From Coriobacteriia bacterium (GTDB taxonomy: Bacteria; Actinomycetota; Coriobacteriia; WRKU01; WQUG01): DNA of 52,760 nt. Under the pieces are notes generated by a model, which worked only from the letters and a program-made list of their open reading frames with translations, made no database searches and had not been told where the DNA came from. Shown in pieces: positions 2,984 through 49,507 of the stretch (the stretch's first letter is position 1; every line of letters begins with the position of its first letter). Where the stretch lies: assembly GCA_009784345.1 (NCBI GenBank), contig WRBW01000003.1, positions 1 to 52,760 on the forward strand, written 5' to 3'. The translations under genes were made by a program, and so were the position numbers.

Positions 2984-4639
2984 TTACTCGATGGCCAGCA
3001 GCAGTGGATACAGTGGCTGGTCACCACGTTGGCAGTCAACCTCGAGGTCTGGATAGGCCTTTTCGATTTGAGCCGCCAGTGCTTCCATGGCTTCATCGCT
3101 GTAGTCTTCGCCTGCAAGAATGGTTAGGTTTTCGCAGGCATGTGCGCAGAGCTTTGGCATAAGTGCGAGGGCAACCTCATCAACGCTGCTGCCCAGTACT
3201 TCGATGTCTTTCGAGTCGACAATGCCCATGATGTCGCCTTCTTTGATTTTGCCGACAGCGGGCGCGCTCGAGTCCTTTATGGCAGCGGTTACCTCGCCAT
3301 AGTTGACCTCTTCGGCGCCTTCAAGCATCTCTTCTGCTAGAGCCTCGACGTCAGTCGCTGCCCCATCAAACATCAGCATGGCAGAGAAAGCAGCAGGTAC
3401 GTTGGTTGTAGGCACCACATAAGCAGGCTGTGGCAGTGCGGTTGCAGCAGCCTGAGCCGCCATAACAATGTTCTTATTATTGGGCAGCAAGATGATGTTA
3501 TCAGCATTTAAGGTCGCAGCCGCATCGATGAAGTCCTGAGTTGAAGGGTTCATGGTCTGCCCACCCTTGATGACGTAGTCAACACCCAGTGAAGTCAAAA
3601 TGTTTGCCAAACCGTCTCCTGACGAAACGGCAATGACGGCAATGTTTTTGTGAGGCGCGGGCGCTGCATTTGCACCAGCTGCCCCTGTGCCTGTCTGCGC
3701 AGCCTGCTGCTGACGCATATTGTGAATGTGCACATCTGCAACTTCACCCTGCTTCAAGTGGAAGGCTAGAACAGCCGCTGGGTCATCTGTGTGGACGTGC
3801 ACCTTGTACTGACCATCTGCACCAACGACCAATTCGCTACCACCCAAAGTGCCCAGATGGTCCAAGGCTGCATCGACATCAAAGTCGCCGCTACTCATAA
3901 AGAGGAACTCTGTGCAGTACAGGAATTCATCATCATCCCAGTCATCCACGGGTGTTACGACCATGTCGTTTCCGCGCATAGGCTCAAACTGAGGCAAATC
4001 TGCAAGCTCACGACCCAAGAGCAGTGCCATAAAAGCATCGTAGACAATAACCAGACCAAAGCCACCAGCGTCAACGACGCCCGCTTCCTTCAAGACCGGC
4101 AAAAGTTCTGGTGTGCGACGTACTGATTCATGGGCCGCTGCAGAAACACCATCTGCCGCTGCCTCAAAGTCCAGACCAGCCTCTGCCGCAGAACGTGCAG
4201 CAGTTGCCATATCTGCAATGACCGTAAGCATCGTACCCTCAACAGGCTTACGAACAGCCTGCCAGGCGACTTCTTTGGCGCGCTCTAAAGATGCGGCCAG
4301 ACGCTCGGTAGCCTCAAAGCCATCAGAAGCCACCAGACCCTCGCAGATACCACGAATAATCTGGGACAAAATAACACCCGAGTTCCCGCGAGCGCCCATC
4401 AAAGACCCATGTGTCGCAGACTTGCAATACTCTTCAATGCTGGCACCTGCAGCAAGCTTAGACACATCATTTACAACAGATTCCAGTGTCAAGGTCATAT
4501 TCGTACCCGTGTCACCATCGGGCACGGGAAAGACATTCAATTTATTAACTTCTTCGACGCGCAGCTTCAGAGCCTGAGCTGCACCAGCGATAACGGCAAC
4601 GACGGGAGTCGCAGCCTGTTTGTCTGACTTTGTCATCAC
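2984..4639 (-). CDS. DAK2 domain (FakA-like) kinase
   Basis: NVFPVPDGDTGTNMTLTLESV...GSLMGARGNSGVILSQIIRG: DhaL/DAK2 motifs; C-terminal FakA-like domain. Confidence 0.88.
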   Translation of the reverse strand: MMTKSDKQAATPVVAVIAGAAQALKLRVEEVNKLNVFPVPDGDTGTNMTLTLESVVNDVSKLAAGASIEEYCKSATHGSLMGARGNSGVILSQIIRGICEGLVASDGFEATERLAASLERAKEVAWQAVRKPVEGTMLTVIADMATAARSAAEAGLDFEAAADGVSAAAHESVRRTPELLPVLKEAGVVDAGGFGLVIVYDAFMALLLGRELADLPQFEPMRGNDMVVTPVDDWDDDEFLYCTEFLFMSSGDFDVDAALDHLGTLGGSELVVGADGQYKVHVHTDDPAAVLAFHLKQGEVADVHIHNMRQQQAAQTGTGAAGANAAPAPHKNIAVIAVSSGDGLANILTSLGVDYVIKGGQTMNPSTQDFIDAAATLNADNIILLPNNKNIVMAAQAAATALPQPAYVVPTTNVPAAFSAMLMFDGAATDVEALAEEMLEGAEEVNYGEVTAAIKDSSAPAVGKIKEGDIMGIVDSKDIEVLGSSVDEVALALMPKLCAHACENLTILAGEDYSDEAMEALAAQIEKAYPDLEVDCQRGDQPLYPLLLAIE

Positions 4640-5020
4640 TTAAGCCCCCTGACGAACTTTCACTTCCAAAACGTGCACGTCGACACGCTCGACCTTGATT
4701 TCAGTCATCGTGGTCAGGGTGTAACGCACGCGGTCAGCCAGATTACGCGATACTTCAGCAAGCTGTGTACCGTATTCGATGACGACATAGAGGTCAACTT
4801 CGACCGTCGAGGCCAGAGGCTCGCCCGCCTCATCAACAGAGTTAGTGATTCTCACGCCACGACGCAGCTTGTTTTGTGGCAAAAGCTGCACCAGTCCATC
4901 GCGCAAGCTCGGGGCCGCCATGCCCACAACACCATAACTTTCCATCGCAGAATAACCCGCCAAATCGGCCAAAACTTCGTTGGAAATATGAATGGCCCCG
5001 CCTGTCAATTCAGCTGTCAT
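4640..5020 (-). CDS. Asp23/Gls24 family envelope stress protein
   Basis: MTAELTGGAIHISNEVLADLAGYSAMESYGVVGMA...; start at 5020 preferred over the longer ORF (5137), which runs into the upstream hairpin. Confidence 0.85.
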   Translation of the reverse strand: MTAELTGGAIHISNEVLADLAGYSAMESYGVVGMAAPSLRDGLVQLLPQNKLRRGVRITNSVDEAGEPLASTVEVDLYVVIEYGTQLAEVSRNLADRVRYTLTTMTEIKVERVDVHVLEVKVRQGA

Positions 5021-5112
5021 GAGACTCCCTTTCTCGATAATTACCAGCCGTCCATTATAACAAAACAGCCTGGTACCCCTCCCTGGGTTTAGGTGCAAAA
5101 CATATAAGAAGA

Positions 5113-5124
5113 GGAGTGCGTCCA
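5113..5124 (+). repeat. Dispersed 12-mer copy (perfect), left arm of tsf terminator
   Basis: GGAGTGCGTCCA. Confidence 0.9.
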
Positions 5125-5128
5125 GGTC

Positions 5129-5140
5129 TGGACACACTCC
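5129..5140 (-). repeat. Dispersed 12-mer copy (TGGACACACTCC, 11/12), right arm of tsf terminator
   Basis: TGGACACACTCCCCC. Confidence 0.85.
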
Positions 5141-5163
5141 CCCGCTTGATTACTTATGAGGTC

Positions 5164-6051
5164 TTAGGCAGCAGTTGAGCCCAAGTCGTAGCGCGTGAAG
5201 GCTACGATCTCGATGCTGTCGCCGATTTCTTTGGCGACGCGTGCGGTGTATTGCTCGATGCTGATGTCCATGTCCTTGACATAGGCTTGCTCGACCAGCG
5301 CCTGCTCTTTAAAGAACTTGTTCAGGCGACCTTCGGCCATTTTTTCCTGAATGGCTTCTGGCTTGCCGCTTTCTGCAGCTTGGGTCTTGTAGATTTCCTT
5401 TTCGCGGTTGATAACGTCTGCATCAAAGTCGTCGCGGCGCACGGCCATAGGGCTTGCGGCAGCTACCTGCATGGCAACGTCGCGGGCGTAAATCTTGAAG
5501 ACTTCATTTTCAGCCGTAGCCTGGTTGCCCAGAGCAAACTGAACCATGATGCCGATCTTTGCGCCGCCGTGGATGTAGGCTGCCAAAGCACCGGTGCTTT
5601 CGATTTCAACGCGCGTGAAGCGGGCGACCTGGATGTTTTCACCCAGCTTACCGACGGCTTCACCAAAGAGCTCTTCAACGGTTATGTCGCGGTTAGGAAC
5701 CTTCAGGGTCTTCAGCGCATCGACATCTGCAGGGTTGTCTTTGACAACTACCTCTGCCAGAAGCTTCACGAAATCAGTAAAGTTCTGATTCATGGCAACA
5801 AAGTCTGTTTCGCAGTTCACTTCGATCAGTGCACCGGTCTTGTCGTCAACGCTGATATATTCTGCAATCGCACCTTCGTTAGTGGCACGACCTGCCTTTT
5901 TGGCATGTGCAGCCAGACCTTGAGTACGCAGGTAGTCGATGGCCTTTTCGATGTCACCTTCGACTTCGGTCAGAGCCTTCTTGCACTCCATCATGCCGGC
6001 GCCGGTCTTTTCACGCAATTCCTTAACAAGTTTTGCCGTAATTTCTGCCAT
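5164..6051 (-). CDS. tsf: Elongation factor Ts
   Basis: MAEITAKLVKELREKTGAGMMECKKALTEVEGDIEKAIDYLR. Confidence 0.97.
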   Translation of the reverse strand: MAEITAKLVKELREKTGAGMMECKKALTEVEGDIEKAIDYLRTQGLAAHAKKAGRATNEGAIAEYISVDDKTGALIEVNCETDFVAMNQNFTDFVKLLAEVVVKDNPADVDALKTLKVPNRDITVEELFGEAVGKLGENIQVARFTRVEIESTGALAAYIHGGAKIGIMVQFALGNQATAENEVFKIYARDVAMQVAAASPMAVRRDDFDADVINREKEIYKTQAAESGKPEAIQEKMAEGRLNKFFKEQALVEQAYVKDMDISIEQYTARVAKEIGDSIEIVAFTRYDLGSTAA

Positions 6052-6113: not shown

Positions 6114-7028
6114 TTATGCAGCTGGGGTTGTGCCTGTTTCAGCAGCTGCAGTGACTTCAGCATCTGCAACTTCGCTCAGGTCAACAACAGGCGCGTCCTC
6201 TTCAGGGCGCACAGGGCTTGCCTCAATGTGCTGTACGACTTCTTCTTCAGAAGGTGCAGCAGCGGCAGCAGCCAAGTCAGCGGCGGCAGCTTTTTCAGCC
6301 TCAAGTTCAGCAGCCTTCATGGCAGTGATGCCACCGTTACCCTCAAGAACCGCAGCAGAAATAACATTCGTGATTAGTGAAATCGAACGAATCGCATCAT
6401 CGTTTGCAGGGATGGGGAAATCAACCTCATCGGGATCGCTGTTGGTGTCAAGAATTGCAATAATAGGAATATTAAGACGACGAGCCTCAGCAACCGCAAT
6501 GGTCTCACGGGTTGTGTCAACGATGAACAATGCCGCAGGAAGCTTACGCATGTTGCGAATACCTTCGAGGTTATTGCGCAGCTTTGCGAGCTCCTTGTTC
6601 TTGAGGATTTGCTCCTTCTTTGGCAGTGTTGCCATGGTGCCATCTTCGATCATGGCTTCGATTTTTTCCATGTGAGTAACGCGCGAACGCACGGTTTCAA
6701 AGTTAGTCAGCATACCGCCCAACCAGCGATGTGTAACGTAAGGCATACCAGCTTGCTTTGCAGCAGTCTCCAGAGGCTCTTGTGCCTGCTTCTTTGTGCC
6801 GACAAAGAGGATTTCGCCGCTGTTCTTACCTTCAGCACCTTGCTTGCCAACGGTGTAGGCATATTTGTAAGCTTTTTCAAGCTCAGCCATAGTTTTTTGG
6901 AGGTTCAAGATATAGATGCCGCCACGCTGGGTGAAAATGTAGGGCTTCATCTTTGGATTCCAACGACGGGTCTGATGCCCAAAGTGGACGCCTGCTTCTA
7001 ACAGGCCTTTCATAGTAACAGTAGCCAT
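6114..7028 (-). CDS. rpsB: 30S ribosomal protein S2
   Basis: MATVTMKGLLEAGVHFGHQTRRWNPKMKPYIF; start at 7028 rather than the 7106 ORF start. Confidence 0.97.
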   Translation of the reverse strand: MATVTMKGLLEAGVHFGHQTRRWNPKMKPYIFTQRGGIYILNLQKTMAELEKAYKYAYTVGKQGAEGKNSGEILFVGTKKQAQEPLETAAKQAGMPYVTHRWLGGMLTNFETVRSRVTHMEKIEAMIEDGTMATLPKKEQILKNKELAKLRNNLEGIRNMRKLPAALFIVDTTRETIAVAEARRLNIPIIAILDTNSDPDEVDFPIPANDDAIRSISLITNVISAAVLEGNGGITAMKAAELEAEKAAAADLAAAAAAPSEEEVVQHIEASPVRPEEDAPVVDLSEVADAEVTAAAETGTTPAA

Positions 7029-7136
7029 AGTAGTACCTATTCCTTTCGTTGTGTCCTCTGCAAGCTTCTTCCTAGCGCGCCACCTCTTTGAGGCACATCG
7101 GCACATCTAGTCCACTTGCATGTGTAATACTGCGGA

Positions 7137-9635: not shown

Positions 9636-11033
9636 CTATCCTTTTCTCTTCAGTCGCGCACAAAAATGGCCATCAGGGCCACCTGAACTTGGTAATATGT
9701 TCAAAAACCCATCCTTGCCCAGCGCATCCACAAAGGGCGGTGCCACTTCGCTTTCCGTGAAGGGCTCTACTTCATATTCTTTGCCAGCTGCTGTAGCTAA
9801 GAATCGCTCTATGACAGACTGGTTTTCTACCGTAGCAATTGTACACGTTGCATAGAAGAGTCGACCACCTGGTTTCACCAAAGCTGCAGACCAGGAAATC
9901 ATGCGCGAGCCCAGCTTTGCAAGCGCAATCAAGTCATCGGGCGAAAGCTTCCAGCGCTTGTCTGCGCCGCGGCGCAGGGTACCAAGCCCCGAACAGGGTG
10001 CGTCAATCAAAACGCTGTCAAAGGATGGACGCACTCCCCCTGTTAAGAGTCCTTTTTCTAAACGCTCATAAGCTGATTGCTTTTTCACATCTATCGTCAG
10101 ATAGCGTGCTTCCCGAACTCCGTAGCTTTGCGCCGTGCGCAGGGCAACCTGATTCTTGAACTCATACAAATCGAGGCCAACAATCTGTGCAGGCCCGCCG
10201 CGCCTGCGAGCACCCGCTGCCATGACGAGTGACTTTGTGCCGCGTCCGCTGCCGACCTCAAGAAGCTGCTGGTCAGGCTGAGCCTTCACCAAGTCAACTA
10301 CCTGCTGGGCAGCTAGGTCCATTGCTACAAAGGATGCACGCAGCTCTGCCGGCATGGCCCAGAACTTGGCCTGGTCGAGGATCTGATAGGCACCCTCGAC
10401 TCCGGCGGATTTATAGCCAACTTTGGCAGCCTCAAGCGCCGCGAGGGACTGTTTTTCTGACCGCAGAAAGGGCAGCTGCGCGACATACAGAGGCGCTGGC
10501 TCATTATTGGTAGCCATCATTTCACGTGCACGCTTCGCGCCGTACTGGTCTTCCATCAAACGTGCCAGCCACAGAGGGTGACCATAAAGTGTCGCCGCAG
10601 CATTCAAATCTGTCTCAGGGTCGCCCCCCGGAAAGAGCTTCTCGCGCTTTTCGCTGAGCCTGCGTAAGACGGCGTTTGCAAGACCTCGATAAGTCTTTGA
10701 ATTCGTGGCAAAGTAGGCCAGCTCTACACCTTGGTTCACCACAACGTAGGCCTCGGTCTTTTCGAAAAAGAGCTCATAGGCGGCAAGTGCGAGCGCGTCT
10801 TTCAAATCGTCAGGCGTCGCTTCTGGCTTTGACAATTCGGTCGCAACGAGCTGGTCCAAAGTGCCGCGCGTGGCAATAGTGCCGTAGGCAAGCCGTGTGG
10901 CAAAGGCCTTGTCGCGCGGGTCTATGTTGGCGCCCACTAGTGCAGACTGCATGGCCTCTGCTGCATAGGACTGCTTTTCGCGCACCCGCTTGATAACCTT
11001 AAAGGCGAGCCGCCGTGCGGGACTTAAACCCAT
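9636..11033 (-). CDS. rsmB: 16S rRNA (cytosine-C5) methyltransferase RsmB/Sun
   Basis: NusB-like N-terminus then LLEVGSGRGTKSLVMA, DAPCSGLGTLRRGADKRWK. Confidence 0.88.
   Translation of the reverse strand: MGLSPARRLAFKVIKRVREKQSYAAEAMQSALVGANIDPRDKAFATRLAYGTIATRGTLDQLVATELSKPEATPDDLKDALALAAYELFFEKTEAYVVVNQGVELAYFATNSKTYRGLANAVLRRLSEKREKLFPGGDPETDLNAAATLYGHPLWLARLMEDQYGAKRAREMMATNNEPAPLYVAQLPFLRSEKQSLAALEAAKVGYKSAGVEGAYQILDQAKFWAMPAELRASFVAMDLAAQQVVDLVKAQPDQQLLEVGSGRGTKSLVMAAGARRRGGPAQIVGLDLYEFKNQVALRTAQSYGVREARYLTIDVKKQSAYERLEKGLLTGGVRPSFDSVLIDAPCSGLGTLRRGADKRWKLSPDDLIALAKLGSRMISWSAALVKPGGRLFYATCTIATVENQSVIERFLATAAGKEYEVEPFTESEVAPPFVDALGKDGFLNILPSSGGPDGHFCARLKRKG
10026..10037 (-). repeat. 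Dispersed 12-mer copy (perfect) in rsmB
   Basis: TGGACGCACTCCCCC; codes GVRP. Confidence 0.9.
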
Positions 11034-12130
11034 GTTAAACCGTCCTTCGCTGGAAATCCGTTCAGCCAATCTGCTGCTGGCATGACTTTTTTGCCGTCAG
11101 GCTTGACCTCAATCAACTCGACACTGCCGTCTGCACAGCCCAGGTAAACACGTCGCGTACCCGAACTTTTGACCAGGCTCACCTGACCTTTGCGGAGTGC
11201 GTCCACACCCCTTGACTCACTGCCTTCTTGAGATTCTTCGACGCGCTGCGCTCGTTCAAGGTGAAGAGGTGAAGCTTCTTCCGAATACTTTATTGCTTCG
11301 AGGATGGTCGCACCCTTGCCCTCTATTTCAAGGCGTGCGGGTGCGTGAACGCTGCTTGCGCGAACACGGCGCAAGAAAGTTTCGACCGTCAGGTCGCTAC
11401 TCAGTCGCAGCTCTGCCTTTTCAATCTTGTCAGCATAGCTGACCTGGGACTCATCTTGAACGGTCCAGGCAGCAGACCTGCCCAGGATGCTTGGGATCAA
11501 GTCAACCAGCAGTTGCCCACCCAGTACGGCTAGTTCGCGACGCAGCTGCGGGGCTGTTTTGCTGGCAACTTCGGTCATCGCCACACCGCAGTAAGGTCCC
11601 GTATCGAGACCCGCCTCCATGTACATGATGCTGACACCGGTATGGCTGTCTCCTTCAAGAATGGCACGCTCAATTGGTGCTGCACCGCGCCATCTGGGCA
11701 AAAGCGATGCGTGAACATTGATGCATCCTGCAGCAGGAATATCGAGCACCTCTTGTGGCAAAATCATGCCGTAGGCAGCAACGACAATCAAGTCGGGCTT
11801 GAGCTCTGCAAGCTCTTTTTGAACCTCTTCATCACGCAGACTTGTTGGCCTGTGCAGGTTGATGCCGCGATCGATGGCTAGCTTGCTGACCTCGCTGGGT
11901 ACGGGCTTGCTACCCCTTTTTGATACGGCATCGGGCCGTGAATAGACGGCAACGACTTCGGAAAAGGACAGGGTGTCGAGCATAATGCGCAGTACATCTG
12001 CTGCAAAATCGGGGGTTCCCATAAAGACGATGCGAGCCTTGGGTGCAATAAAGGCTGGCCGATCAATGCGCTCGGCCAAATGGTTAATATTGTCATAATT
12101 TGACATTATGGGGATGAAGCGCTCAAACAT
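11024..12130 (-). CDS. fmt: Methionyl-tRNA formyltransferase
   Basis: RIVFMGTPDFAADVLR..., VAAYGMILPQEVLDIPAAGCINVHASLLPRWRGAAPIERAILEGD. Confidence 0.94.
   Translation of the reverse strand: MFERFIPIMSNYDNINHLAERIDRPAFIAPKARIVFMGTPDFAADVLRIMLDTLSFSEVVAVYSRPDAVSKRGSKPVPSEVSKLAIDRGINLHRPTSLRDEEVQKELAELKPDLIVVAAYGMILPQEVLDIPAAGCINVHASLLPRWRGAAPIERAILEGDSHTGVSIMYMEAGLDTGPYCGVAMTEVASKTAPQLRRELAVLGGQLLVDLIPSILGRSAAWTVQDESQVSYADKIEKAELRLSSDLTVETFLRRVRASSVHAPARLEIEGKGATILEAIKYSEEASPLHLERAQRVEESQEGSESRGVDALRKGQVSLVKSSGTRRVYLGCADGSVELIEVKPDGKKVMPAADWLNGFPAKDGLTWV
11194..11205 (+). repeat. Dispersed 12-mer copy (perfect) in fmt
   Basis: GCGGAGTGCGTCCA; codes VDALR. Confidence 0.9.
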
Positions 12131-13458: not shown

Positions 13459-15969
13459 CTAATCTACCCTCTCCTCGGGATCAAAGTCATCATCGTAGTC
13501 CTGATCAAAGTCAGCATCAAAATCTGCCTCTGCCTCGTCCTCGAAATCGTCCTCGTCATAATCATCGGGATTTCTCAGCCGGGCAAGGCCTGCACTGTCA
13601 ATCAAAACTTCGCGGGGTTTCGAGCCGTCTGGCGGCCCAACTACCCCTCTAGAATGTAACATATCCATGATGCGCCCTGCACGAGAATAACCCACAGAGA
13701 AGCGTCTTTGAATGCCGCTGGTCGACCCAAAGCCGGCAGCAACCACCATTTCAGCCGCGTCCCACAGCAGGGCGTCTTCTTCACCGGCACTGTCAGAGCC
13801 GTCAGAACCATCAGCTCCTGATACCGCGACATCGAAAATCGATTCGTCATAGGTGACGTCTCCTGCTTGATCGCGCAAGAATCCGACAGCCGCCTCGATT
13901 TCGTCTTCTGAGACATAGCAGCCCTGGATGCGCTTGGGCTCAGGCCAGGACGGAATCGAGAAGAGCATATCACCCAGACCTGTCAGCTTTTCTGCACCAG
14001 AAACGTCCAAAATAACACGTGAGTTACTGGCAGTCGCCGTTCTAAAGGCAACACGGTTGGTAATATTTGCCTTGATTTGACCGGTCACAACATTGGCATC
14101 AGGTCGCTGCGTTGCCACAATCAGGTGAATACCTGCTGCACGTGCCAGCTGGGCAATCTGAACAATGGATGACTCGACTTCTTTTGCTGCCTTGTCCATC
14201 AGATTTGCGAGCTCATCGATGACGATGACCAAATAGGGCAGCTCAAGAGCATCCTCGCCATGCTTGCCATCGATGACGGCCTGATTGTATTCCCCAATGT
14301 TTCGGGCTCGATGCTTTTCAAGCGTCGCCAGACGTCTTTCCATCTCTCCCACAGCCCAGGCAAGAGCAGATGCCGCCTTCTTCACGCTGGTCACAACGGG
14401 CACCTTCAAGTGCGGAAGACCATTAAACATCGAGAACTCAACACGCTTGGGATCAATCAGAATCAGGTTTACTTCAGCAGGTGTTGCCCGCATAATCATC
14501 GTCATAATCATCGAGTTGACTGCGACCGATTTACCCGACCCCGTAGCACCAGCAACCAGCAGGTGTGGCATGCTCGCAAGATTGCGGGCAATGCTTGCGC
14601 CGGTGACATCACGCCCAAAGTACAGGGTCAAAGGCCCGTCGCCTGAATCTGTCGGCTTGATTACATCGCCCAAGGTAACAGAAGAGCGGCTCGCATTAGG
14701 CACCTCGACGCCCACCAAGCTCTCGCCAGGAATCGGCGCCAGAATACGAATCGTCGGAGCCGCCAGTGCATAGGCCAGATTGTCATTAAGCGCCGTCACC
14801 TTATTCATTTTAACGCCACTGGCAATGTCAACCTTGTACAGGGTGACCGTCGGGCCCACAATCCAGTCAACTACCTGGGAATCAACACCGAATTCGCGGA
14901 GTGTGTCCACCAGCAGATCTGCCGTTGCCTGCTGTTGCGCCTCTGCCTCCGGAGAGTTTTCATCGAAGTCTGCCGTTCCTTTTTTGAGCAAGTCCATGGC
15001 TGGCAAGACAAAGCCTTCAAGCGCGCGTGGCGCCGTCGTATTATGCGCCAGAACTTCAGTAACGGCTGCGGCAGGCTCGATAACCTCAGTCGCCTTTTCT
15101 TCTGCCGGCTTCTTTTTCTTGCCCTTTAAGACCTGGGTGCGCTCGAGTTCATCCTCATCATCGTCGAGCAGCGTGGTCGGGGCATTATCAAGGGTATTTA
15201 TTCCGGGACTCTTGCGTCTACCCGTGGTGCGAGCAGGAGCATCGTCAGGCTCCTGTGCTGCCAGCTTTTCTGTGCGTGGCATAAGGGCTGCCTTTTCAGC
15301 CTGTGCGTAGGCGCGCTCTTCTGCGCGGTCTGCACGCCAGTCTGAAAGCCACTCGAATACTGCTGACAGCGAAAAGCCCGTGATGATGAGACCAATGAGT
15401 CCTAGTGCAATGAAGATGACATAGGAAATCGCGGTGCCCGCAAGAGCATGTACCGCCCAGGCAAGAGCATTGCCTAGGTAACCACCATGTGACTGCAAGG
15501 TAGCAGATTCAAAGGGCGTAGCCTGCGCTGCACTAACCGCAACGAGCCCCACTACACCTATGACGGCAAGCAAAAAGAGCGACAAGCCTACCGCAAAACG
15601 CATTTCAGAAAAGCGCAGAGCGGGAATGAAAAAGGTAAGACCCATGATTATCAGTACAAAGGGCAAGACAAAGCGACCAAGTCCGATGAGAAGACCCAGC
15701 CCCATGTCGATAAAGCCCGTAGCAACCCCGGTCAGTATCCCAAAGACAGGCAAGATAACGCTCAGGGCAAGCACCGTACCTAAAGTAACGAGGACTATGC
15801 CCCATATGTCAGAAGCTGCACGCTCATCAATCAGGGGGCTGCGCTGCGCCTTCTTACTTGCACGCCCCGTCTTTTGTGAGCCCGTGCGTGAACTGGCAGC
15901 TTTGGACGCACTCCCCCTGCTGCCGGTTCGTGAGCCACTTTTACTCTGAGTTTTTTTCTTTGCTGACAC
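13459..15969 (-). CDS. ftsK: DNA translocase FtsK/SpoIIIE
   Basis: Four-TM N-terminus, PHLLVAGATGSGKSVAVNSMIMTM Walker A, C-terminal gamma winged helix, acidic tail. Confidence 0.95.
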   Translation of the reverse strand: MSAKKKTQSKSGSRTGSRGSASKAASSRTGSQKTGRASKKAQRSPLIDERAASDIWGIVLVTLGTVLALSVILPVFGILTGVATGFIDMGLGLLIGLGRFVLPFVLIIMGLTFFIPALRFSEMRFAVGLSLFLLAVIGVVGLVAVSAAQATPFESATLQSHGGYLGNALAWAVHALAGTAISYVIFIALGLIGLIITGFSLSAVFEWLSDWRADRAEERAYAQAEKAALMPRTEKLAAQEPDDAPARTTGRRKSPGINTLDNAPTTLLDDDEDELERTQVLKGKKKKPAEEKATEVIEPAAAVTEVLAHNTTAPRALEGFVLPAMDLLKKGTADFDENSPEAEAQQQATADLLVDTLREFGVDSQVVDWIVGPTVTLYKVDIASGVKMNKVTALNDNLAYALAAPTIRILAPIPGESLVGVEVPNASRSSVTLGDVIKPTDSGDGPLTLYFGRDVTGASIARNLASMPHLLVAGATGSGKSVAVNSMIMTMIMRATPAEVNLILIDPKRVEFSMFNGLPHLKVPVVTSVKKAASALAWAVGEMERRLATLEKHRARNIGEYNQAVIDGKHGEDALELPYLVIVIDELANLMDKAAKEVESSIVQIAQLARAAGIHLIVATQRPDANVVTGQIKANITNRVAFRTATASNSRVILDVSGAEKLTGLGDMLFSIPSWPEPKRIQGCYVSEDEIEAAVGFLRDQAGDVTYDESIFDVAVSGADGSDGSDSAGEEDALLWDAAEMVVAAGFGSTSGIQRRFSVGYSRAGRIMDMLHSRGVVGPPDGSKPREVLIDSAGLARLRNPDDYDEDDFEDEAEADFDADFDQDYDDDFDPEERVD
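14898..14909 (+). repeat. Dispersed 12-mer copy (GGAGTGTGTCCA, 11/12) in ftsK
   Basis: GCGGAGTGTGTCCA; codes VDTLR. Confidence 0.8.
15903..15914 (-). repeat. Dispersed 12-mer copy (perfect) in ftsK N-terminus
   Basis: TGGACGCACTCCCCC; codes GSASK (a third reading frame). Confidence 0.9.
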
Positions 15970-22447: not shown

Positions 22448-23116
22448 TCAAACAGCAGCAGCTCTTGCCACCATGTCTTGATAGGCTGCAGCTGGGTCAT
22501 CTGCTTTATAGAAAGCATTTCCCGCAACAAAGCAAGCTGCCCCTTGTGCAGAGCACAGTCCGATGGTGTCAGGATTTATGCCCCCATCAACCTGAATAAG
22601 CGGAGTGCGTCCAGCGCTCTCGCACATTGCCTTGAGCTCTCGCAAACGGTCAACCGTTTCAGGTATGAAGGACTGCCCAGAAAAGCCTGGATAGACCGAC
22701 ATGATAAGTATCATGTCAACACAGTCTAGATAGGGCTCAAGACTTGAGACGCAGGCGTCAGGCTTTATCGACAAGCCGAACTTCTTACCACGTGAGTGGA
22801 CGCACTCCGCCATCTTATTAACATCATTGGCAGCTTCGAGGTGAACGGTGATGTAGTCACAGCCGGCGTCGAGGTACCACTCGATGGTTTCGTCGGGGTT
22901 TTCAATCATCAGGTGTGCGTCAAAGACAAGATTTGATATCGGGCGCAGGGCCGCTATGACGGGAGGTCCAAAGGTCAGGTTGGGCACAAAGTGGCCGTCC
23001 ATGACGTCGAGGTGAATCCAAGGACAGCCGGCGTTTTCTGCCGTCTTGAGCGCAGCTGCAAGCTTGGTGAAGTCTGCCGACAAGAGCGACGGCGAAATGA
23101 TAATTGATTGAGACAT
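22448..23116 (-). CDS. rpe: Ribulose-phosphate 3-epimerase
   Basis: SPSLLSADFTKLAAAL, HLDVMDGHFVPNLTFGP, PGFSGQSFIPE, VDGGINPDT. Confidence 0.95.
   Translation of the reverse strand: MSQSIIISPSLLSADFTKLAAALKTAENAGCPWIHLDVMDGHFVPNLTFGPPVIAALRPISNLVFDAHLMIENPDETIEWYLDAGCDYITVHLEAANDVNKMAECVHSRGKKFGLSIKPDACVSSLEPYLDCVDMILIMSVYPGFSGQSFIPETVDRLRELKAMCESAGRTPLIQVDGGINPDTIGLCSAQGAACFVAGNAFYKADDPAAAYQDMVARAAAV
22602..22613 (+). repeat. Dispersed 12-mer copy (perfect) in rpe
   Basis: GCGGAGTGCGTCCA; codes AGRTPL. Confidence 0.9.
22797..22808 (-). repeat. Dispersed 12-mer copy (perfect) in rpe, second site
   Basis: TGGACGCACTCCGCC; codes AECVHS. Confidence 0.9.
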
Positions 23117-26565: not shown

Positions 26566-28041
26566 TTATGCTTCGTCTTTGAGTGCCTGTGCGGCGGCGG
26601 CAATCTGCGCGGTCAGCCCGGCAACACCCGTCTGGTAAAAGGCGATGTGAACGGGTCTACCCTGACCGCAGGTGCGGAGCTCATCAATCAACTGCTGCGC
26701 CGTATAATCATCAAGGGTAATGCCGTCATCATTGAAGATACAGTCAGGAATGAGATAGCGATGCTTTTCGACTCCAGCGTGACCCTCTTCATGCAAGTAC
26801 TCGCAATCAAGCTTTACACCGCGCAAAATATCGAGACCTGTGAGAAGCCCCGTCACACTGACATTGCCGCCAAAGAAGCGATTCTTTATGGGCAAGAGGC
26901 GCAACTTGCCTCCCGCATTGATGCCACCTAAAACACCTAGCCATGTTTGCGTTAAGAGCTCGCCGCAGACGATGGTTATGGCTTCCTTGCCTGCGTCGGC
27001 AGGCAACATCTTGCCGTCTGGGCCCGATGGCTGAGGGGGCAACAGGGTCAGTGCCGTTGAAAGCTCATCAAGATTATCGCGGACATCGGCAATAAAGTTC
27101 AAAATCATCCCGATGCCATTTTCAAGCTGCGGAAAGCCATCGTAGTATTGCGGTAGCGGGAAGGGCGCGTGGGCATGTACGTAGAACTCATCCGCCAAAT
27201 AGACCCAGGTAAGTCCCGTCTCCTTTTCGTGAGCAAACTGGTAGGTCTGTACTTGGTCGATAACAGACTTGCACCACTCTTCGCGCTCAGCCGGCACCGT
27301 GCTCGCATCTGTCAGCATTTCTTTGAGACGAGCGGGTGCATAGTCCGTGTAGGCCACCGGGACAATACCGACACTCAGGACATGAGCAATGCGCGCCGGA
27401 TCCTGCAAATAAGCAAGTGTCTCATCTAAGATAGCGCCATCATTGACGCCAGGTACCAGCACTATCTGGATATGAAAATCGATACCAGCCTCTATGAGCT
27501 CATCAAAGTTTTCCAATGCAAGATCATGGTTTTTACCCATCAAGCGCGTGCGCACCTCAGGATTTGATGCATGAAAGGACAGACGAAGCGGAGAAATGCG
27601 CTGCTCCACGATACGGTCCTTATCTTCGGGCTTTAAGTTTGTTAGGGTAATAAAGTTTCCCTGCAGGAAAGACAGACGATAGTCATCGTCGCGCATGCAC
27701 AGGGTTTTGCGCGCTGTTGCCGGCAGCTGCCTCATAAAGCAAAAGACGCAGTCGTTCTTGCAGCTGTGGATTTTGTCATAAATCACGTCGTCAAAAACCA
27801 GTCCCCAGCCGTCCTGCAAATTATCGCGCTGCAGCATGACCGTGCGCAGGTCACCGTCAGCGGCTCGAAGCTCGAGCTCGACTTCAGGACCATCGCTTTC
27901 CCACAGCCATTCGATGTAGTCGTGAGCTGGCTTGCCATTGATGGAATGGACGTACTCCCCCGCCGAAATTCCTGCCGCGTCTGCAATCGACCAAGGTTCA
28001 ACAGCTGCAATCAGGGCTGCACGCGTAATCTTAGGATTCAT
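26566..28041 (-). CDS. DUF512 (PDZ + radical-SAM-like) family protein
   Basis: PDZ-like start, IHSCKNDCVFCFMRQLPATARKTLCMRDDDYRLSFLQGNFITLTNL. Confidence 0.85.
   Translation of the reverse strand: MNPKITRAALIAAVEPWSIADAAGISAGEYVHSINGKPAHDYIEWLWESDGPEVELELRAADGDLRTVMLQRDNLQDGWGLVFDDVIYDKIHSCKNDCVFCFMRQLPATARKTLCMRDDDYRLSFLQGNFITLTNLKPEDKDRIVEQRISPLRLSFHASNPEVRTRLMGKNHDLALENFDELIEAGIDFHIQIVLVPGVNDGAILDETLAYLQDPARIAHVLSVGIVPVAYTDYAPARLKEMLTDASTVPAEREEWCKSVIDQVQTYQFAHEKETGLTWVYLADEFYVHAHAPFPLPQYYDGFPQLENGIGMILNFIADVRDNLDELSTALTLLPPQPSGPDGKMLPADAGKEAITIVCGELLTQTWLGVLGGINAGGKLRLLPIKNRFFGGNVSVTGLLTGLDILRGVKLDCEYLHEEGHAGVEKHRYLIPDCIFNDDGITLDDYTAQQLIDELRTCGQGRPVHIAFYQTGVAGLTAQIAAAAQALKDEA
27946..27957 (-). 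repeat. Dispersed 12-mer copy (TGGACGTACTCC, 11/12) in DUF512 gene
   Basis: TGGACGTACTCCCCC; codes GEYVHS. Confidence 0.85.
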
Positions 28042-28989: not shown

Positions 28990-29790
28990 TTAGCGGCTGC
29001 GCTTTGCGTTGTCTGTGCGTGCTACCTCAAAGGAAGCAGCGATGCCCTCCATAACAAGATCCGTCAAGCGTGCTATGCGCTCTTTTTTTGCATATTCAGA
29101 AGCCGGCACCACCTCGTCAGGCACCAAAGCCTCGCCAAAGTGCACGTCAACGGCGGGAAAACGCAGGGTGCGCATACCATCAGGCCTGATGCGATCTGTT
29201 CCCGCAATACCTACGGGCACAACAGGCACATTGTTGCGAATCGCAAGCCAAGCAGCACCACCATGCGCCTCGCCCAAACCGTGGTCTTTGTCCACCATCA
29301 TGTCCTCGTTGCGAATGCGCGTGCCTTCGGGGAAAATCCCAATCGTGTCACCAGCTTTGAGCAAATTCGAGGCCTTGCGCATGGTATCAAGGTCAGCCTT
29401 GTCACGCGAAATGGGCAGTGCGCCCGCCTGGTCGATAATCCAGGCAAGAGGCTTGAATTTCCATAGATTTCGCTTGCCCAAGAGACGCAGCTTAAAGCCG
29501 TAACGGCGCGTCAGGGCAATCACCACAATGGCATCCATATTGCTCAAATGGTTGGGGCTCATGATGTAGGCACCCGTGGGCAGGTTTTCTGCCCCCGTGA
29601 CCCGAACGCGATACATCGGAACAATGATGATGCTTGCCAGAAAAAGCACAAAGGAACGCAGCACCCATTTGGGCTCGCCAGGCTTGCCCTTATCTGCAAG
29701 CGCATGCCTGCGCATGGCTACATGACGAGGCTCTCTGCTCTTCACCTTCGTCTTTTCTGCAGCATCTTTTTGCGGAGTACGTCCACTCAT
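28990..29790 (-). CDS. plsC: 1-acyl-sn-glycerol-3-phosphate acyltransferase
   Basis: MSPNHLSNMDAIVV, GIFPEGTRIRNEDM. Confidence 0.9.
   Translation of the reverse strand: MSGRTPQKDAAEKTKVKSREPRHVAMRRHALADKGKPGEPKWVLRSFVLFLASIIIVPMYRVRVTGAENLPTGAYIMSPNHLSNMDAIVVIALTRRYGFKLRLLGKRNLWKFKPLAWIIDQAGALPISRDKADLDTMRKASNLLKAGDTIGIFPEGTRIRNEDMMVDKDHGLGEAHGGAAWLAIRNNVPVVPVGIAGTDRIRPDGMRTLRFPAVDVHFGEALVPDEVVPASEYAKKERIARLTDLVMEGIAASFEVARTDNAKRSR
29774..29785 (+). repeat. Dispersed 12-mer copy (GGAGTACGTCCA, 11/12) in plsC N-terminus
   Basis: GCGGAGTACGTCCA; codes SGRTPQ. Confidence 0.85.
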
Positions 29791-31809: not shown

Positions 31810-31829
31810 GTGTGGACCTACTCCTCTAT

Positions 31830-34759: not shown

Positions 34760-35575
34760 CTATTTCAGGATGAGCCCGACGGGACAGTGGTCGCTCCCGA
34801 AGACTTCTGCGTAGATAGGCGTGTCCTCCACATGAGGCATCAGTGAAGGTGAGCATAGAAAGTAATCAATACGCCAACCTACGTTGTTTGCGCGCGCATT
34901 GGCGCGGTAGGACCACCAGGTATAGAGACCTGGCACATCGGGATTGCGCTCACGCAGCGGATCGGCAAACCCTGTATCAAGGAGCTGAGTCAGCTTGGCG
35001 CGCTCTTCATCTGAAAAACCTGGCTTTCCTCTGTTGGGCTTGGGTCGTGCGAGGTCTATTTCCTCGTGCGCGCAATTCAGGTCTCCCCCAATGATGACGG
35101 GCTTGCTAACTGCAAGTCCTGAAACGAAGCGGCGAAAAGCATCCTCCCAGCGCATCCGAAAGTCAAGCCTGGCGAGCTCTGGTTGAGCATTGGGGGTATA
35201 GACATTGACCACCCAAAAATCTTTGAATTCACAGGCGGTGACCCTGCCCTCGCGGTCAAGGTCGGAGAGATGGACGTACTCCTCCGCCTTGTCATCAATC
35301 ATGGGGTTGTCGCCCGCAAGCTGGGGCGAGTCGACGTAGCGCAAGACGCGCAGAGGCTTTTCTTTCGAAAAGATAGCTGTTCCCGAGTAGCCCTTCTTGA
35401 GGGCGTAAGACCAGCTTTGGTAGTAGCCGGGAAGCTCGAGTTCGACCTGCCCTTCCTGCAGCTTGATTTCTTGCAGCATGAAGAGGTCGGCATCGAGTGC
35501 CTCGAATTGCTCCATGAAGCCTTTGTTGAGGCTCGCGCGTAGACCATTAACGTTCCATGAGATGAGTTTTTTCAT
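34760..35575 (-). CDS. xth: Exodeoxyribonuclease III
   Basis: [42 protein letters not shown]. Confidence 0.92.
35271..35282 (-). repeat. Dispersed 12-mer copy (TGGACGTACTCC, 11/12) in xth
   Basis: TGGACGTACTCCTCC; codes EEYVHL. Confidence 0.85.
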
Positions 35576-39591: not shown

Positions 39592-39648
39592 TCCTTTCAC
39601 ATGCCCGACAGAACCTGCGCCCAGAATGCACAGCAGAAAGGAACAGTC

Positions 39649-42600
39649 ATGTCCTTCATCATGAAACGTATTGCTGCAAAAGAAGGCATTGCCCTGGTGC
39701 TCATCGCCACCTTCATAGTGAGCATGCTTGCCTCGGCTGCACTGCCCCAGCGTGCAGATGCCGCCGTTCCTCCCGCGACGCGAGCCTTTGCCACGCAAAG
39801 CGGACATACGGGACCCATCGTGCATAGCTCTGGCACGCTGCCTGCCTACTGCCTTGATCATGGCGCAGCCTCCCCCAATGGCAGGACGCTGACAAGGGGA
39901 GCCAAGCTTTCTCGTGCTACGGGTAGTGTCGAGCAGTCCATTTCGAAGGCCATTGATCTAGGTCCACAAAACCTGAGCAGCAGAACTACCATTAACGGTG
40001 TCAGCTTGAGTAATCTCGAGTGGCGCATGGCGACGCAACTTGCCATCTTTCGTCTGCAGGGTGAGAGCCTTCTCTACAGCAGAAATACCAATCACTGGAG
40101 GGCCTCCACCTGGATTGTGAACCAGGCGACGAGCACCAGTCGCGTTCAGCTCAACCGCTACTGGATCTACCGTCCACCTGCAGGAAGCGGCATTCAAAGG
40201 ATGACCTTTTCCTGGGGCGACCCCCTCACGTCTCGCATTCGCGTACAAAAAACAGATGCGACATCTGGAGCGCTCCTCGCTGGGGCAAGCTTCGGGATAT
40301 GGTCAAACTCCTCCGCTGCTGCTGCGGGAAACACGGGCGCTGCAAGCTTCATAGGACGGGCAAGTTCAGATGCAAGCGGGCAGGCGTGGTGGTATCGCAT
40401 CCCTGTTGGCACAACTTACTATGTCAGAGAGCTTGCTCCACCTGCTGGCTATACCCTCAATACCGCCGTGCTGAGCGTCACCCCGGTGCTGGGAGACGAC
40501 TCTGAAGCGGCACAGGGCAGCCTTCCCCAGTACCTTGCGGGGACTATCGCAAATCAGCGTGCCGCCATTCACAGGATTGAGCTGACTAAAGAGTCGGTGT
40601 CGCCTGGGAGCCAGATCAGTGCTGAAGCCGTGCGGGGTAACCCCGCCTACCAACTGTCAGGAGCACAGTATGGCGTATGGACCGACAGGGCAGCGGCAGA
40701 CAGCAGAAACCTTAATCACCCCTCGATTGTTGGGCGGATGACGACAGACAGTCAGGGCCGAGCCTCGCTGTCAGGGCTGCTGCCAGGTACTTATTTTGTT
40801 CGAGAGTTCATACCGCCGGCTGGTCATGCCCTTGACTTGCAGACGCACAGCGTCACCTTGAGCGCCCTTGCTGGTGGCAGCAGTTTCACCGGCAGGGTCA
40901 GTTCTCAAGATGCGCGTCGCTATGGTGGCAACCTGGTCATTCAGAAAGTTGATGGTGAAACGGGTCTGGCGCAAGCACGTCCCGGTACGAGTCTCGCGGG
41001 GGCAGAATTCGAGATCAGATGGCCTGACCAGCAAGCACCAAGCGGCTGGACAACCCAAACGGTCAGTACCAACGCTGCGGGACGAGCAGTATATCAAGCA
41101 ACAGGGCCGTCAGCGCCCGGGATTCCGATTGGGAACTTTCAAATAAGAGAAACGAAGGCGCCACCGGGCTACCTCATTAGTCCTGAGTATAGCAATTGGA
41201 GAAGCTTCCAGGTGTCAGATTCTCCTGCTGCAGATAGGCCCCCTGAAATAGCCTTGTCTGCCCTGCTTTCCCCCATTGAGGAGCCCATCATAAGGGGAGA
41301 CCTTTCCCTTTTCAAATATGGCAGCGTGAGCGACCAAGGTGTTGAAACGAGTTTCGCCCTTGAACATATCCGCTTTGACCTTATTGACAACATGCCTTTG
41401 GGTGGTGATGGAAGACCCAATCCGCGCTTCGGACAGATTGTTGGAACTCTTTTCACTGACGAAGAAGGCAGAGCAAGCACCCGCGACCTGATACCTGATA
41501 GTGCCAGCTGGGGCAAGACAGATTACCGCAGTGGCTACCTTGAATATGGCGACTACATCTTAAGTGAAGATGCATCAACGACACCGATAGGTCTTCAGGC
41601 TGCAGATGACATGAGCTTCTCTATCACGGAAAACGGAGTTGAGCTGCACTACCTTATCTGCAATAAAGAAATCACGGCTTACTTGAGTATCGTCAAGCGC
41701 GATAGCGAGACCCTCAATACCATTGCCGTGAGCGGAACACGCTTTGACCTACTTAATTCAAACAAGGACGTCATAAGTCGCCTCACTACCGATGAGACCG
41801 GTCACGTACACCTGCCCGAAGTGCTCAAGCATGGCAACTACTATCTTCAGGAAGTACAGGCGCCGGACCGCTACCTCCTGCATACCGAGCCCATAGCCTT
41901 TAGCGTGGACAAAATTAGGGGGCTCGATAATCCCATCGTCATATGCGTCGACAACGACCCCGCAAAAGCAGCTCTTCGCGTTGTCAAAACTGACAGCATA
42001 ACAGCAACAGCCGTACCCGATACGGTCTTTGAAGTCAGAGCTAAAGATGATGTTGTAACCGGCGACGGAACCCTGCGCCTTGCCGCAGGAGAGCTTGCCG
42101 ACATTATCAGTACTGACGCAAGCGGCATTGCCGAAAGCATCCCCCTTTATCTGGGAAGCTACGAGATGCGCGAAGTAAAGACGACGCCTCATTACTTGCT
42201 CAACACGACCGTTTTTGACGTCAAGCTAGAGTACCAGGACCAAAACACAGCTCTTGTCTGGACTGAGGTCCCGGTACAAAATGAGCCCGTGCAGATCAGT
42301 TGCGAGATTGAAAAGCGCACGATATCCATTAGCTCTGCAGCCTATCGCTCTGGCGCAGGAGACGAGGTGCAGATTGATAATAGCGCGCAGGGCAGCAAAG
42401 AGCTCTATCGCTACGACCTCGATTTTTGGTCGACTTCGAACGACTGGGCAGATGAATTCGTTGTTTTTGACGCCTTAGAGGGAGTAGGTGCAGACCAGAT
42501 TCGCTTGCACGAATTGTGGACTCCTATCGTGAAGGGAGACACAAATGGACTTTACAACCTGTGGTATCAGACCAATCTGGCGAGCCAGGAGGTGACGCAG

Positions 42601-43263: not shown

Positions 43264-44186
43264 CCGTAGTTTTGACGCGGGCTCCCATAGTAGAAGCCCG
43301 TACCTTGTGGCCGAAAGGTTTGCGCGCGCAGCTGCTCGACATAATCGCGAGGGTCTGCCCCATCGAGTACCGCACGATAGGCAGAAATCACCGTCGTTAT
43401 ATAGTTGACTCCTTTGGTGCGTCCCTCTATCTTGAGGCTATCGATCCCCGCATTACAGAGGTCATCGATGTGCTCAATCATGTTGAGGTCATAGGGGCTA
43501 AAGATAGTGGTGTATCCGTCATCTTCAATGACGGGAATGCTTTCGTTAGGGCGCTTTTTTTCAACGAGCTCATAGGACCAGCGGCAACTGTGAGCGCACT
43601 GACCTTTGTTTGCGTCTCTGTCAGCAAGATAGTTACTGATGATGCAGCGCCCACTAATAGCCATGCATTGCGCACCATGCACAAAGACCTCGAGCTGCAT
43701 GTCCTCAGGCAGGTTCTTGCGAAGCTCTGTCAGTTCACGTAAGTCAAGTTCACGTGCAGCAACGATACGCCTCGCACCTGCCTCGTACCAAGTCTGAGCA
43801 CTGAGGGAATTGGCAACACTTGCTTGTGTGCTGACATGCAGGTCGATTTCAGGTGCGATCTCGCCTGCTAGCTTTGCAGCCCCCAGATCAGACACTATGA
43901 AGGCATCAACCCCGGTGTCTTTTACGGCACCTAAGTAAGCTCTCAGAGAAGAGAGATCAGATTCATGGATGAGGGCATTGACGGTGAGGTAGATAAGGCG
44001 TTTTCTGGAGTGGACGTACTCCGCCGCGCTTTTCAATTCGTCGACACAAAAATTGGCAGCATTGTAGCGCAGGCCAAAGCTCTTACCGCCACAGTAGACG
44101 GCATCGGCCCCGCAGTCTATGGCGAGCTTAAGCGCCTCGATACTACCTGCAGGCGCCAACAGTTCTGGTCTCTGGTGCGCTCTCAT
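43257..44186 (-). CDS. Peptidase U32 family protein
   Basis: [66 protein letters not shown]. Confidence 0.9.
44011..44022 (-). repeat. Dispersed 12-mer copy (TGGACGTACTCC, 11/12) in U32 peptidase gene
   Basis: TGGACGTACTCCGCC; codes AEYVHS. Confidence 0.85.
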
Positions 44187-47431: not shown

Positions 47432-48166
47432 ATGAAGCTCCAGACACAGCTCTTGCAGGCTCCGATTCTCAGCAGTATGAAGGATATACTGGGGGAAATT
47501 GTTGCTCCGACTCGCTGCGCCGGCTGCGAGCGCCAGGGCGCAGTCTTCTGTCCGCACTGCATGGCATCACTGCCCTACCTTTACCTTCAGCACCAGGCTT
47601 GCCCAAAGTGTGCCGGTCCCTATGGTGCGCTGACCTGCACGGAATGTTGGGAAGTAAGTTACAGCTTTAGCCATGCCTTGGCACTGAGCCTGCTTGACGG
47701 CCCACTTGCCCGCGCCATCGTCATCTACAAGGACGGAAATGAGCGGAGGCTGGCTCGCTGCTTTGGAGCTCTGCTGGCGGAGTGCGTCCAAACCACCTGG
47801 TCTGAGTGGCTCGACCCTGATTGTCAAATCAGCTGGATTCCTGCTACGGCTGCTGCTGTTCGAAGGCGTGGCTTTGACCACGGAGAACTGCTTGCTTACG
47901 CCCTATCAAAGCAGCTTAACATTGCGGCACTCCCCCTCTTGTCGCGACCACGCGCACGCGACCAAAGAGGTTTGTCGCGCAAGCAGCGCATGAAGGGGTT
48001 CAAGGAATTTACGGTACAGCCACAAAAAAATAAGCAAGACCTGCACAAGGTCTTGCTTATTGATGATGTCTTTACCACCGGTGCCACCTTAGAAGCAGCA
48101 AGCCTAGCTTTGCTCGAAAATGGTGCTGCAGAAGTTCGGGTCGCTGTATTAGGCCGCGCCTGGTAG
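47432..48166 (+). CDS. comF: ComF family phosphoribosyltransferase-like competence protein
   Basis: APTRCAGCERQGAVFCPHCMASLPYL zinc ribbon; VLLIDDVFTTGATLEAASLALLENGAAEVRVAVLGR PRTase motif. Confidence 0.88.
   Translation: MKLQTQLLQAPILSSMKDILGEIVAPTRCAGCERQGAVFCPHCMASLPYLYLQHQACPKCAGPYGALTCTECWEVSYSFSHALALSLLDGPLARAIVIYKDGNERRLARCFGALLAECVQTTWSEWLDPDCQISWIPATAAAVRRRGFDHGELLAYALSKQLNIAALPLLSRPRARDQRGLSRKQRMKGFKEFTVQPQKNKQDLHKVLLIDDVFTTGATLEAASLALLENGAAEVRVAVLGRAW
47779..47790 (+). repeat. Dispersed 12-mer copy (perfect, with full flank) in comF
   Basis: GGCGGAGTGCGTCCA; codes AECVQT. Confidence 0.9.
48024..48061 (-). terminator. Minus-strand intrinsic terminator inside the comF coding sequence
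   Basis: AATAAGCAAGACCT-GCACA-AGGTCTTGCTTATT perfect 14-bp stem; T7 follows on the minus strand. Confidence 0.8.
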
Positions 48167-48307: not shown

Positions 48308-49507
48308 CTACTTCATGGTGTGGGGAATTTCTTCTGCTGTAATTACACCCCGCTCGGTGATGTAGCCCTTAATGTATTTTGCTGGTGTCACGTCAAAGGC
48401 AGGGTTAAAGCAGGACACATGCGTGGGGGTATTTTTGAACCATCCATCAAAGGAAAAGCCTCCGCCTTTGCGTGCGATGGACATGTGGTGACCCTTCGAC
48501 AAAGGAAGCTCTGCAGGTCCCTGAGCCGTCATCTTATCAAAGGCAGCAGAGATTTCTGGTGTAGTCGCATCAAAGGTGCCACTGACCGTAATCCCCTCGA
48601 TTTCCTTTTGATCGCGAACCTCGATTTCGATTTGCTTACCTTCTGCAAGCTCCAGATCGAAGGTGGTAGAAGGTGCTGCGATATAGAAAGGAATACCATG
48701 TTCTTTTGCCAGAATCGCAAGACCGTAGGTACCAATCTTATTAGCAGTGTCACCATTGGCACAAATCCGGTCTGCTCCGACGACAACGGCATCAACAAGA
48801 CCTTCTCCCATGACAAAGGCAGCCATATTGTCGCAGATGAGTTGTGAGGGGACGCCTGCAAAGAGGAGCTCCCAAGCCGTGAGTCTACCACCCTGATTAA
48901 CAGGGCGCGTTTCATCAACCCAGACATGCTCGACCTTATCCTGCAAGTGAGCCGAGTATATGACGCCCAGAGCGGTACCATAAAAAGTCGTAGCCAAAGA
49001 ACCTGCATTACAGTGCGTCAAGAATTTGGTCGGACCATCAAAGAGTGCTGCACCAAAGTCTCCCAAGGCACGATTTGCAGCCTCATCTTCTTCCATGACT
49101 TTATGAGCCTCTGCAATTAGTAAGTCCCTGATAGTTTCTGGGTTCATTGAGGATTGGACGCACTCCGCCAAGACAGCGCGAAGCCTGTTGACCTCGCGCG
49201 AGAGGTTCACCGCCGTGGGGCGAGCATCAGCCAGTTCATCACAAACCGTCATGGCTGCAGCCAGGTAGTCATCGCCTGCTGATTCGAAGTCCATGCCTTC
49301 CGTTGCGCTCCACAGGGCTACTCCTAGGGCGCCGGCAGCACCAATGGCGGGGGCGCCACGAACCGCCAGCGTTTTGATGGCAACAATGACGCCTTCGTAG
49401 GTGCTGCACACCAAAATGTCCCCTTGAAGGGGCAGGCGCGTCTGATCAATCATGTGAACGCTCGTGTCTTCCCACCAAATAGTTCTGGGTAGCTGTTCTA
49501 CTGACAT
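48308..49507 (-). CDS. mtnA: S-methyl-5-thioribose-1-phosphate isomerase-like (eIF-2B alpha family)
   Basis: IKTLAVRGAPAIGAAGALGVAL, HCNAGSLATTFYGTALGVIYSA, VVGADRICANGDTANKIGTYGLA. Confidence 0.9.
   Translation of the reverse strand: MSVEQLPRTIWWEDTSVHMIDQTRLPLQGDILVCSTYEGVIVAIKTLAVRGAPAIGAAGALGVALWSATEGMDFESAGDDYLAAAMTVCDELADARPTAVNLSREVNRLRAVLAECVQSSMNPETIRDLLIAEAHKVMEEDEAANRALGDFGAALFDGPTKFLTHCNAGSLATTFYGTALGVIYSAHLQDKVEHVWVDETRPVNQGGRLTAWELLFAGVPSQLICDNMAAFVMGEGLVDAVVVGADRICANGDTANKIGTYGLAILAKEHGIPFYIAAPSTTFDLELAEGKQIEIEVRDQKEIEGITVSGTFDATTPEISAAFDKMTAQGPAELPLSKGHHMSIARKGGGFSFDGWFKNTPTHVSCFNPAFDVTPAKYIKGYITERGVITAEEIPHTMK
49155..49166 (-). repeat. Dispersed 12-mer copy (perfect, with full flank) in mtnA
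   Basis: TGGACGCACTCCGCC; codes AECVQS. Confidence 0.9.

Follow-up and report, generated by a model that had tools for sequence, protein, structure and literature searches.

Inverted copies of a dispersed, uptake-sequence-like motif as the predicted terminator of tsf in a Coriobacteriia bacterium

Directly after the gene for elongation factor Ts (tsf; 5164..6051, minus strand; Pfam EF_TS, 1.9e-64), two copies of a dispersed 12-nucleotide motif face one another, which raises the question of whether the pair ends the tsf transcript and whether such an arrangement speaks for the motif being a DNA-uptake sequence, as an earlier note had proposed by analogy with Neisseria and Haemophilus. In the window, i.e., the whole stretch of 52,760 nucleotides that was analysed, tsf is preceded by a minus-strand gene of the ORF list at 6114..7106 (expected to be rpsB from position and gene order) and followed, beyond the motif pair, by an Asp23-family gene (asp23; 4640..5020, minus strand) and then by a FakA-like gene (2984-4639). 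The copy GGAGTGCGTCCA, an exact match to the consensus at 5113..5124 on the plus strand, would supply the downstream arm of a hairpin in the transcript, and the inverted copy GGAGTGTGTCCA at 5129..5140 on the minus strand (TGGACACACTCC as read on the plus strand) would supply the upstream arm. Between them lies a 4-nt loop (5125..5128; GGTC on the plus strand, GACC in the minus-strand transcript), a length that is also the commonest spacer genome-wide. The motif arms begin 23 nt past the tsf stop (5164) and lie 92 nt before asp23.

The earlier note had counted 11 of 12 paired positions around a tetraloop, and this is what the plus strand as written contains, with a C.A opposition at position 7; because tsf is encoded on the minus strand, that mismatch turns into G.U, and all 12 arm positions pair on the transcribed strand. 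With flanking bases, the stem of the predicted hairpin (5110..5143, minus strand) reaches 15 bp plus three outer pairs and is followed by UCUUAUAUGUUU; the T-rich tail beyond the stem, TCTTATATGTTT in transcript sense, occupies 5098..5109 on the minus strand, with 6 T among the 10 nt beyond the arm. The hairpin has a folding energy of -28.7 kcal/mol (z -6.4), none of 200 dinucleotide shuffles being as stable, and it is the sole match, on the minus strand, in a consensus terminator scan of positions 4900-5300 (mean of 0.4 matches in shuffles). The terminator anatomy claimed for the pair is thus borne out: a stable GC-rich hairpin near the stop codon and a U-rich tail are the features of a Rho-independent terminator, and the motif pair is probably, on this sequence evidence, the terminator of tsf. 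It resembles ordinary terminators of this kind in its post-stop position, GC-rich stem, short loop, and T-rich tail, but differs from them in that a genome-wide motif supplies both of its arms.

Comparison of the tsf 3' ends of relatives bears on the same question. In G010, G009, and G007, a hairpin with the same 4-nt loop as in the own genome (G000) follows the stop codon, and in the alignment of these four sequences (four genomes, two genera) 48 of 48 cells pair, including two-sided changes at three pairs (U-A to C-G, G-C to A-U, and U-A to C-G); pairing drops to 25-60% when the partner is slid along the alignment, and 17-19 of 500 shuffles score as high in a covariation test that comprises only four sequences. 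Downstream of the orthologous hairpins of G010 and G009 stand TTTCTT and TTCATT, respectively. The arms of the motif-poor G009 no longer match the motif core, yet its hairpin is still fully paired, as if termination had been retained after the motif's other role faded. The hairpin is absent from the tsf 3' end of G008; in G004, G005, and G006, which belong to the same family, tsf is followed by an unrelated hairpin of the GAGCCGGCC type, and genomes farther removed carry other stems at this point (several of them ordinary hairpin-plus-T terminators) or none, the stems of relatives outside the motif-bearing genera being unrelated.

The motif itself is abundant throughout the genome, which is a draft of 1,481,145 bases in 128 contigs (85% complete, 2.4% contamination). 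Exact copies of the 12-mer number 175 (99 forward, 76 reverse), with none for a reversed-pattern control; GGAGTNNGTCCA occurs 296 times (149 and 147 by strand) against 8 for its control, and the window alone holds 25 matches at up to two mismatches against 4.7 expected. A chance origin of the motif and of the pair is excluded. The literal motif had no occurrence in the literature searched. The extended consensus, derived from 440 kb of sampled sequence, consists of an A-rich segment from -10 to -6, Y at -3, GG at -2 and -1, V at 0, GGAGT, G/A, C/T, GTCCA, and T, or, in short, an A-rich stretch plus roughly yGGvGGAGTgcGTCCAt, with little conserved farther out; the A-rich 5' flank and the GG at -2/-1 are also found in single copies, whether sense or antisense. 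Placement and pair statistics are based on 1.02 Mb of stretches from this genome, for which the gene calls are home-made and approximate. There, 83 of 209 perfect copies (40%) are intergenic, yet intergenic DNA makes up 12.7% of the total, and the 126 copies inside coding sequences (~60%) favour one sense and one antisense frame, chiefly encoding AECVH/Q and MDALR/L. Strand bias is absent, both relative to the genes (85 sense, 98 antisense) and relative to the local majority gene strand (126 and 148). Counts per 10 kb are more even than Poisson (variance/mean of 0.80, or 0.68 where the G+C fraction of the 10-kb segment is at least 0.50); segments with G+C below 0.50 average 1.42 copies versus 2.88, although they are few and G+C confounds the comparison.

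One such region was noted on contig C1 of the own genome (~60-108 kb; L059 1-20000, L060 12000-20000, and L110 1-7939): low in G+C and nearly motif-free, it encodes glycosyltransferase, DegT, and CDP-glycerol transferase genes, then PIN, YhcG nuclease, AIPR, DUF4420, and Z1. It looks like a surface-glycan and phage-defence island, and its lack of motif fits acquired DNA, though its G+C is also low. A 1596-aa open frame without a Pfam match was also observed on L060 (7197-11987, plus strand).

Within the window, exact single copies lie inside coding sequences at 10026..10037 (minus) and 11194..11205 (plus), and further exact copies are found at 15903..15914 (minus), 22602..22613 (plus), 22797..22808 (minus), 47779..47790 (plus), and 49155..49166 (minus). 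A single GGAGTGTGTCCA copy inside a coding sequence (14898..14909, plus) and an intergenic variant, GGAGTAGGTCCA (31813..31824, minus), have identical aligned sites in G009. The variant GGAGTACGTCCA occurs at 27947..27958 (minus), at 29774..29785 (plus), at 35271..35282 (minus), where the aligned G007 site reads GGAGTCTGTCCA (core kept, centre changed), and at 44011..44022 (minus), which is kept in G007 and decayed in G009. The window additionally encodes a surface adhesin of Gram-positive type (1220 aa; 39601-43263, plus strand), in which a thioester (TED) domain is combined with five SpaA-type repeats.

The arrangement seen at tsf recurs across the genome. When each arm was allowed up to one mismatch from GGAGTNNGTCCA and the arms lay within 20 nt of each other, the 1.02 Mb contained 17 convergent (+-) pairs, no divergent (-+) pair, no ++ pair, and one -- pair, compared with ~1.9 per class and a maximum of 8 +- pairs in 200 trials of random placement within compartments. 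The spacers are discrete, at 4 nt (nine pairs), 11-12 nt (seven), and 1 nt (one), and a stop codon lies within 60 nt of 16 of the 19 pairs with spacers of up to 25 nt, versus 24% of random intergenic positions. The search for closely spaced inverted pairs and their stop codons that the earlier note had called for therefore yielded about 20 such pairs, and the tsf pair is not the only one in the genome. A relaxed 4-nt-spaced pair pattern gave 11 forward and 14 reverse matches in G000, with no control match in any of the 14 genomes of the order that were compared; among these, only G000, G007, G010, G003, and G008 have 4-nt-spacer pairs. In G007, inverted pairs mostly use the arm GAGCACGTCCA and single copies favour GAGTCTGTCCA. 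A search for the 28-bp pair in 84,980 GTDB species genomes, from which the own genome and close kin were possibly excluded, returned one match, in Kitasatospora (L055), judged to be a chance match as a long GC-rich perfect palindrome; the pair was not found in the viral contigs searched.

Two properties of the pairs as a class temper their reading as terminators. Among 18 pairs in tandem gene context, the tails have no T bias by direction (3.22 downstream T versus 3.06 upstream A per 10 nt, p 0.95), and the two variable positions in the centre of the G000 pairs are complementary as often (30 of 40) as in independently drawn copies (29.9 expected); with tails and centres of this kind, the hairpins, taken as a class, could simply follow from the way the pairs are oriented. 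In a rough scan, the motif was present in 5 of 25 strong hairpin-plus-T gene ends, a share similar in order to the 17-29% given for Pasteurellaceae (Kingsford et al., 2007; PMC1852404). As made from sequence, the argument for termination depends on how the pairs are oriented, placed, and spaced, and on the fact that the tsf hairpin is conserved.

Within the order, the motif is restricted to a single family, where it varies by genus and by species. In the order-level comparison of 14 genomes including G000, the relative G007 (same family, another genus) has 216 copies with a centre that is mostly CT, G010, G008, G009, G006, and G003 have 10-53 copies each, and the rest of the order has at most three; in the wider phylum, GGAGTNNGTCCAT matches at most four times per genome in 396 other genomes versus 141 times in G000. 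Density thus ranges from ~200/Mb down to near zero across genera of a single family. Dialects can be distinguished, with the centre GC in G000 and CT in G007 and a preference for A at position 1 in G008 (AGAGTNNGTCCA); alignment of homologous sites shows turnover of most copies, while several retain the core and differ in the centre. De novo k-mer searches recovered the same core, weakly enriched, in G009 and found no equivalent motif in the 340 kb of G004.

Other repeats were observed in these relatives. The palindrome AACATNNNNNNNATGTT has 14 copies in the 340 kb of G004 versus 0.4 expected; G009 contains 16 copies of the palindrome CCTACNNNNGTAGG and overlapping, CRISPR-repeat-like 11-mers around AACGACACAACTCTAAAAC (9 copies). 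In G007 (L086-L089, L170-L189), poly-C/G runs of at least 9 are common (46 nine-mers in 335 kb versus 3.8 expected), and there are repeated elements centred on CCCCATGCCCAGAG and ACACCN7GTAGGN7ACTAACTGGA, possibly phase-variable or mobile repeats.

Single copies form the majority and ~60% of all copies fall within coding sequence, so the motif most likely did not spread for the sake of termination. In most of the respects examined its distribution is like that of an uptake sequence, with over-representation on both strands, intergenic enrichment, convergent pairs at gene ends, and dialects with a conserved core. According to the most recent statement found, uptake sequences are known only from Neisseriaceae and Pasteurellaceae (PMC12616744). 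An excess of +- pairs has been described for both DUS and USS, as have preferred spacings by which the extended motif stays intact and A-rich 5' flanks that turn into tails; DUS pairs in N. meningitidis comprise 226 +- versus 5 -+, and USS pairs in H. influenzae comprise 50 +- and 25 -+, with preferred spacings of about 8 and 19-22 nt (Kingsford et al., 2007; PMC1852404). The present motif resembles the DUS of Neisseriaceae as an abundant short motif with lineage dialects, a fixed core, single copies within and between genes, convergent gene-end pairs (here 17 versus 0), and an A-rich 5' flank supplying A/T tails, but its sequence and lineage are unrelated and its copies several-fold fewer (~200/Mb, below DUS and USS). 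With the USS of Pasteurellaceae it shares an extended motif with an A/T-rich flank, preferred spacings (here 4 and 11-12), and both coding and intergenic copies; AAGTGCGGT is nevertheless a different motif, the machinery differs, the long A/T tracts of USS lie 3' of the core whereas the A-rich flank here lies 5', and only +- pairs occur here whereas H. influenzae has both +- and -+. The likeness to DUS and USS terminator pairs asserted by the earlier note accordingly holds in orientation bias, discrete spacers, and post-stop placement (Kingsford et al., 2007; PMC1852404). Its further claim that the pair lends independent support to the uptake analogy stands in part: the pair pattern matches, but the support is not fully independent because a motif of any kind, once abundant, could end up in terminators, the tails have no direction bias, and centre complementarity is at chance.

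The uptake machinery encoded by the family gives a similarly qualified answer. Type IVa pilins are the class to which the receptors belong, ComP being proven in Neisseria and PpdA/ComN predicted in Pasteurellaceae. No genome of the family has a match to a type IVa pilin (N_methyl), and a receptor of the ComP class was not found here, another difference from DUS. In G000, ComEA (SLBB plus helix-hairpin-helix) is encoded immediately upstream of ComEC, DprA is also present, and a Tad locus encodes a TadZ-like protein, a CpaF-type ATPase, two T2SSF proteins, and a Flp-like pilin with GVSEYIIILAVIV. With ComEA, ComEC, and DprA present and a Tad/Flp pilus as the only pilus detected, this would be a third, independent uptake-sequence-like system, neither DUS nor USS. 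The ComEA, ComEC, and DprA families also occur in the majority of control genomes and in relatives poor in the motif, and motif-rich relatives cannot be told from motif-poor ones by whether they have ComEC, DprA, the Tad ATPase, or a 714-aa protein of the Tad locus; as motif-poor relatives have the competence and Tad genes to the same extent, uptake is permitted by the gene content, not pointed to.

Other accounts of the motif or of its hairpins were weighed against this background. Were the motif the site of an abundant chromosome-organising or regulatory protein, pairs spaced by 4 or 11-12 nt could be dimer or cooperative sites and the hairpin incidental, which would suit the discrete spacers, the partly symmetric GGA...TCC core, the more-even-than-random spacing, and the excess of copies between genes (13% of the DNA holds 40% of them). 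Such an account must be set against pairs that are exclusively convergent and placed after stop codons, against the G009 tsf hairpin, fully paired though its arms have lost the motif core, and against a density that falls from ~200/Mb to near zero within one family, which would be odd for a housekeeping architectural protein; it is considered unlikely, though it deserves to be taken seriously. Rather improbable is an account in which the hairpins stabilise or process 3' ends, with tsf termination being Rho-dependent or occurring farther downstream: the tails of the pairs as a group are indeed not T-biased, and several end in CCGCC rather than U, yet the tsf pair itself has a T-rich tail and scores as a terminator, its G010 and G009 orthologs run into TTTCTT and TTCATT, and ordinary hairpin-plus-T terminators occupy this site in several relatives farther removed.

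A mobile palindromic repeat of REP/BIME or terminator type, spread by a transposase and leaving single copies as decayed halves, would also be dispersed and numerous, with paired palindromes close to gene ends. REP/BIME units are extragenic only, however, whereas ~60% of the present copies lie in coding sequence with strong frame preference; the shared sequence ends at about 25 bp, and aligned homologous sites are mostly ordinary diverged sequence instead of gaps. This origin is very improbable and was rejected on the coding location of the copies. Hardly credible at all is an oriented recombination or segregation signal like Chi or KOPS, which, like the motif, would be short and over-represented across the whole chromosome but would not be expected to lack a gene-strand bias (85/98 and 126/148, gene strand serving as a proxy for replication direction) or to form symmetric convergent pairs; it was rejected because strand bias is absent.

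The best explanation, and one considered fairly probable, combines a recruited terminator, as predicted from sequence, with a motif that is uptake-sequence-like by analogy: two inverted copies of a family-specific dispersed motif would have been taken over to serve tsf as its intrinsic terminator. Transcription of the minus strand would produce a hairpin of 15 bp, capped by a 4-nt loop and followed by a U-rich tail, upon which RNA polymerase would be released before asp23. The motif would accumulate as a DNA-uptake-like tag that biases natural transformation toward the DNA of kin and is spread by recombination, and paired copies may be kept at gene ends because they also form hairpins. The more specific proposal, on which belief and doubt are nearly balanced, is that a DNA-uptake-sequence system, complete with dialects and paired-motif terminators, evolved independently for a third time in this family, known here from draft genomes only, and that it works with ComEA/ComEC and a Tad pilus in place of the type IVa pilus.

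The terminator built from paired motifs has so far been described only for the DUS and USS of Neisseria and of Haemophilus relatives. If the proposal is true, the uptake-sequence strategy would have evolved a third time, with different machinery, in an unrelated lineage that lacks type IVa pilins, and the receptor would be predicted to reside in ComEA or the Tad apparatus. The conserved tsf hairpin, for its part, suggests that such motifs can enter gene expression and, as in G009, outlast the motif itself.
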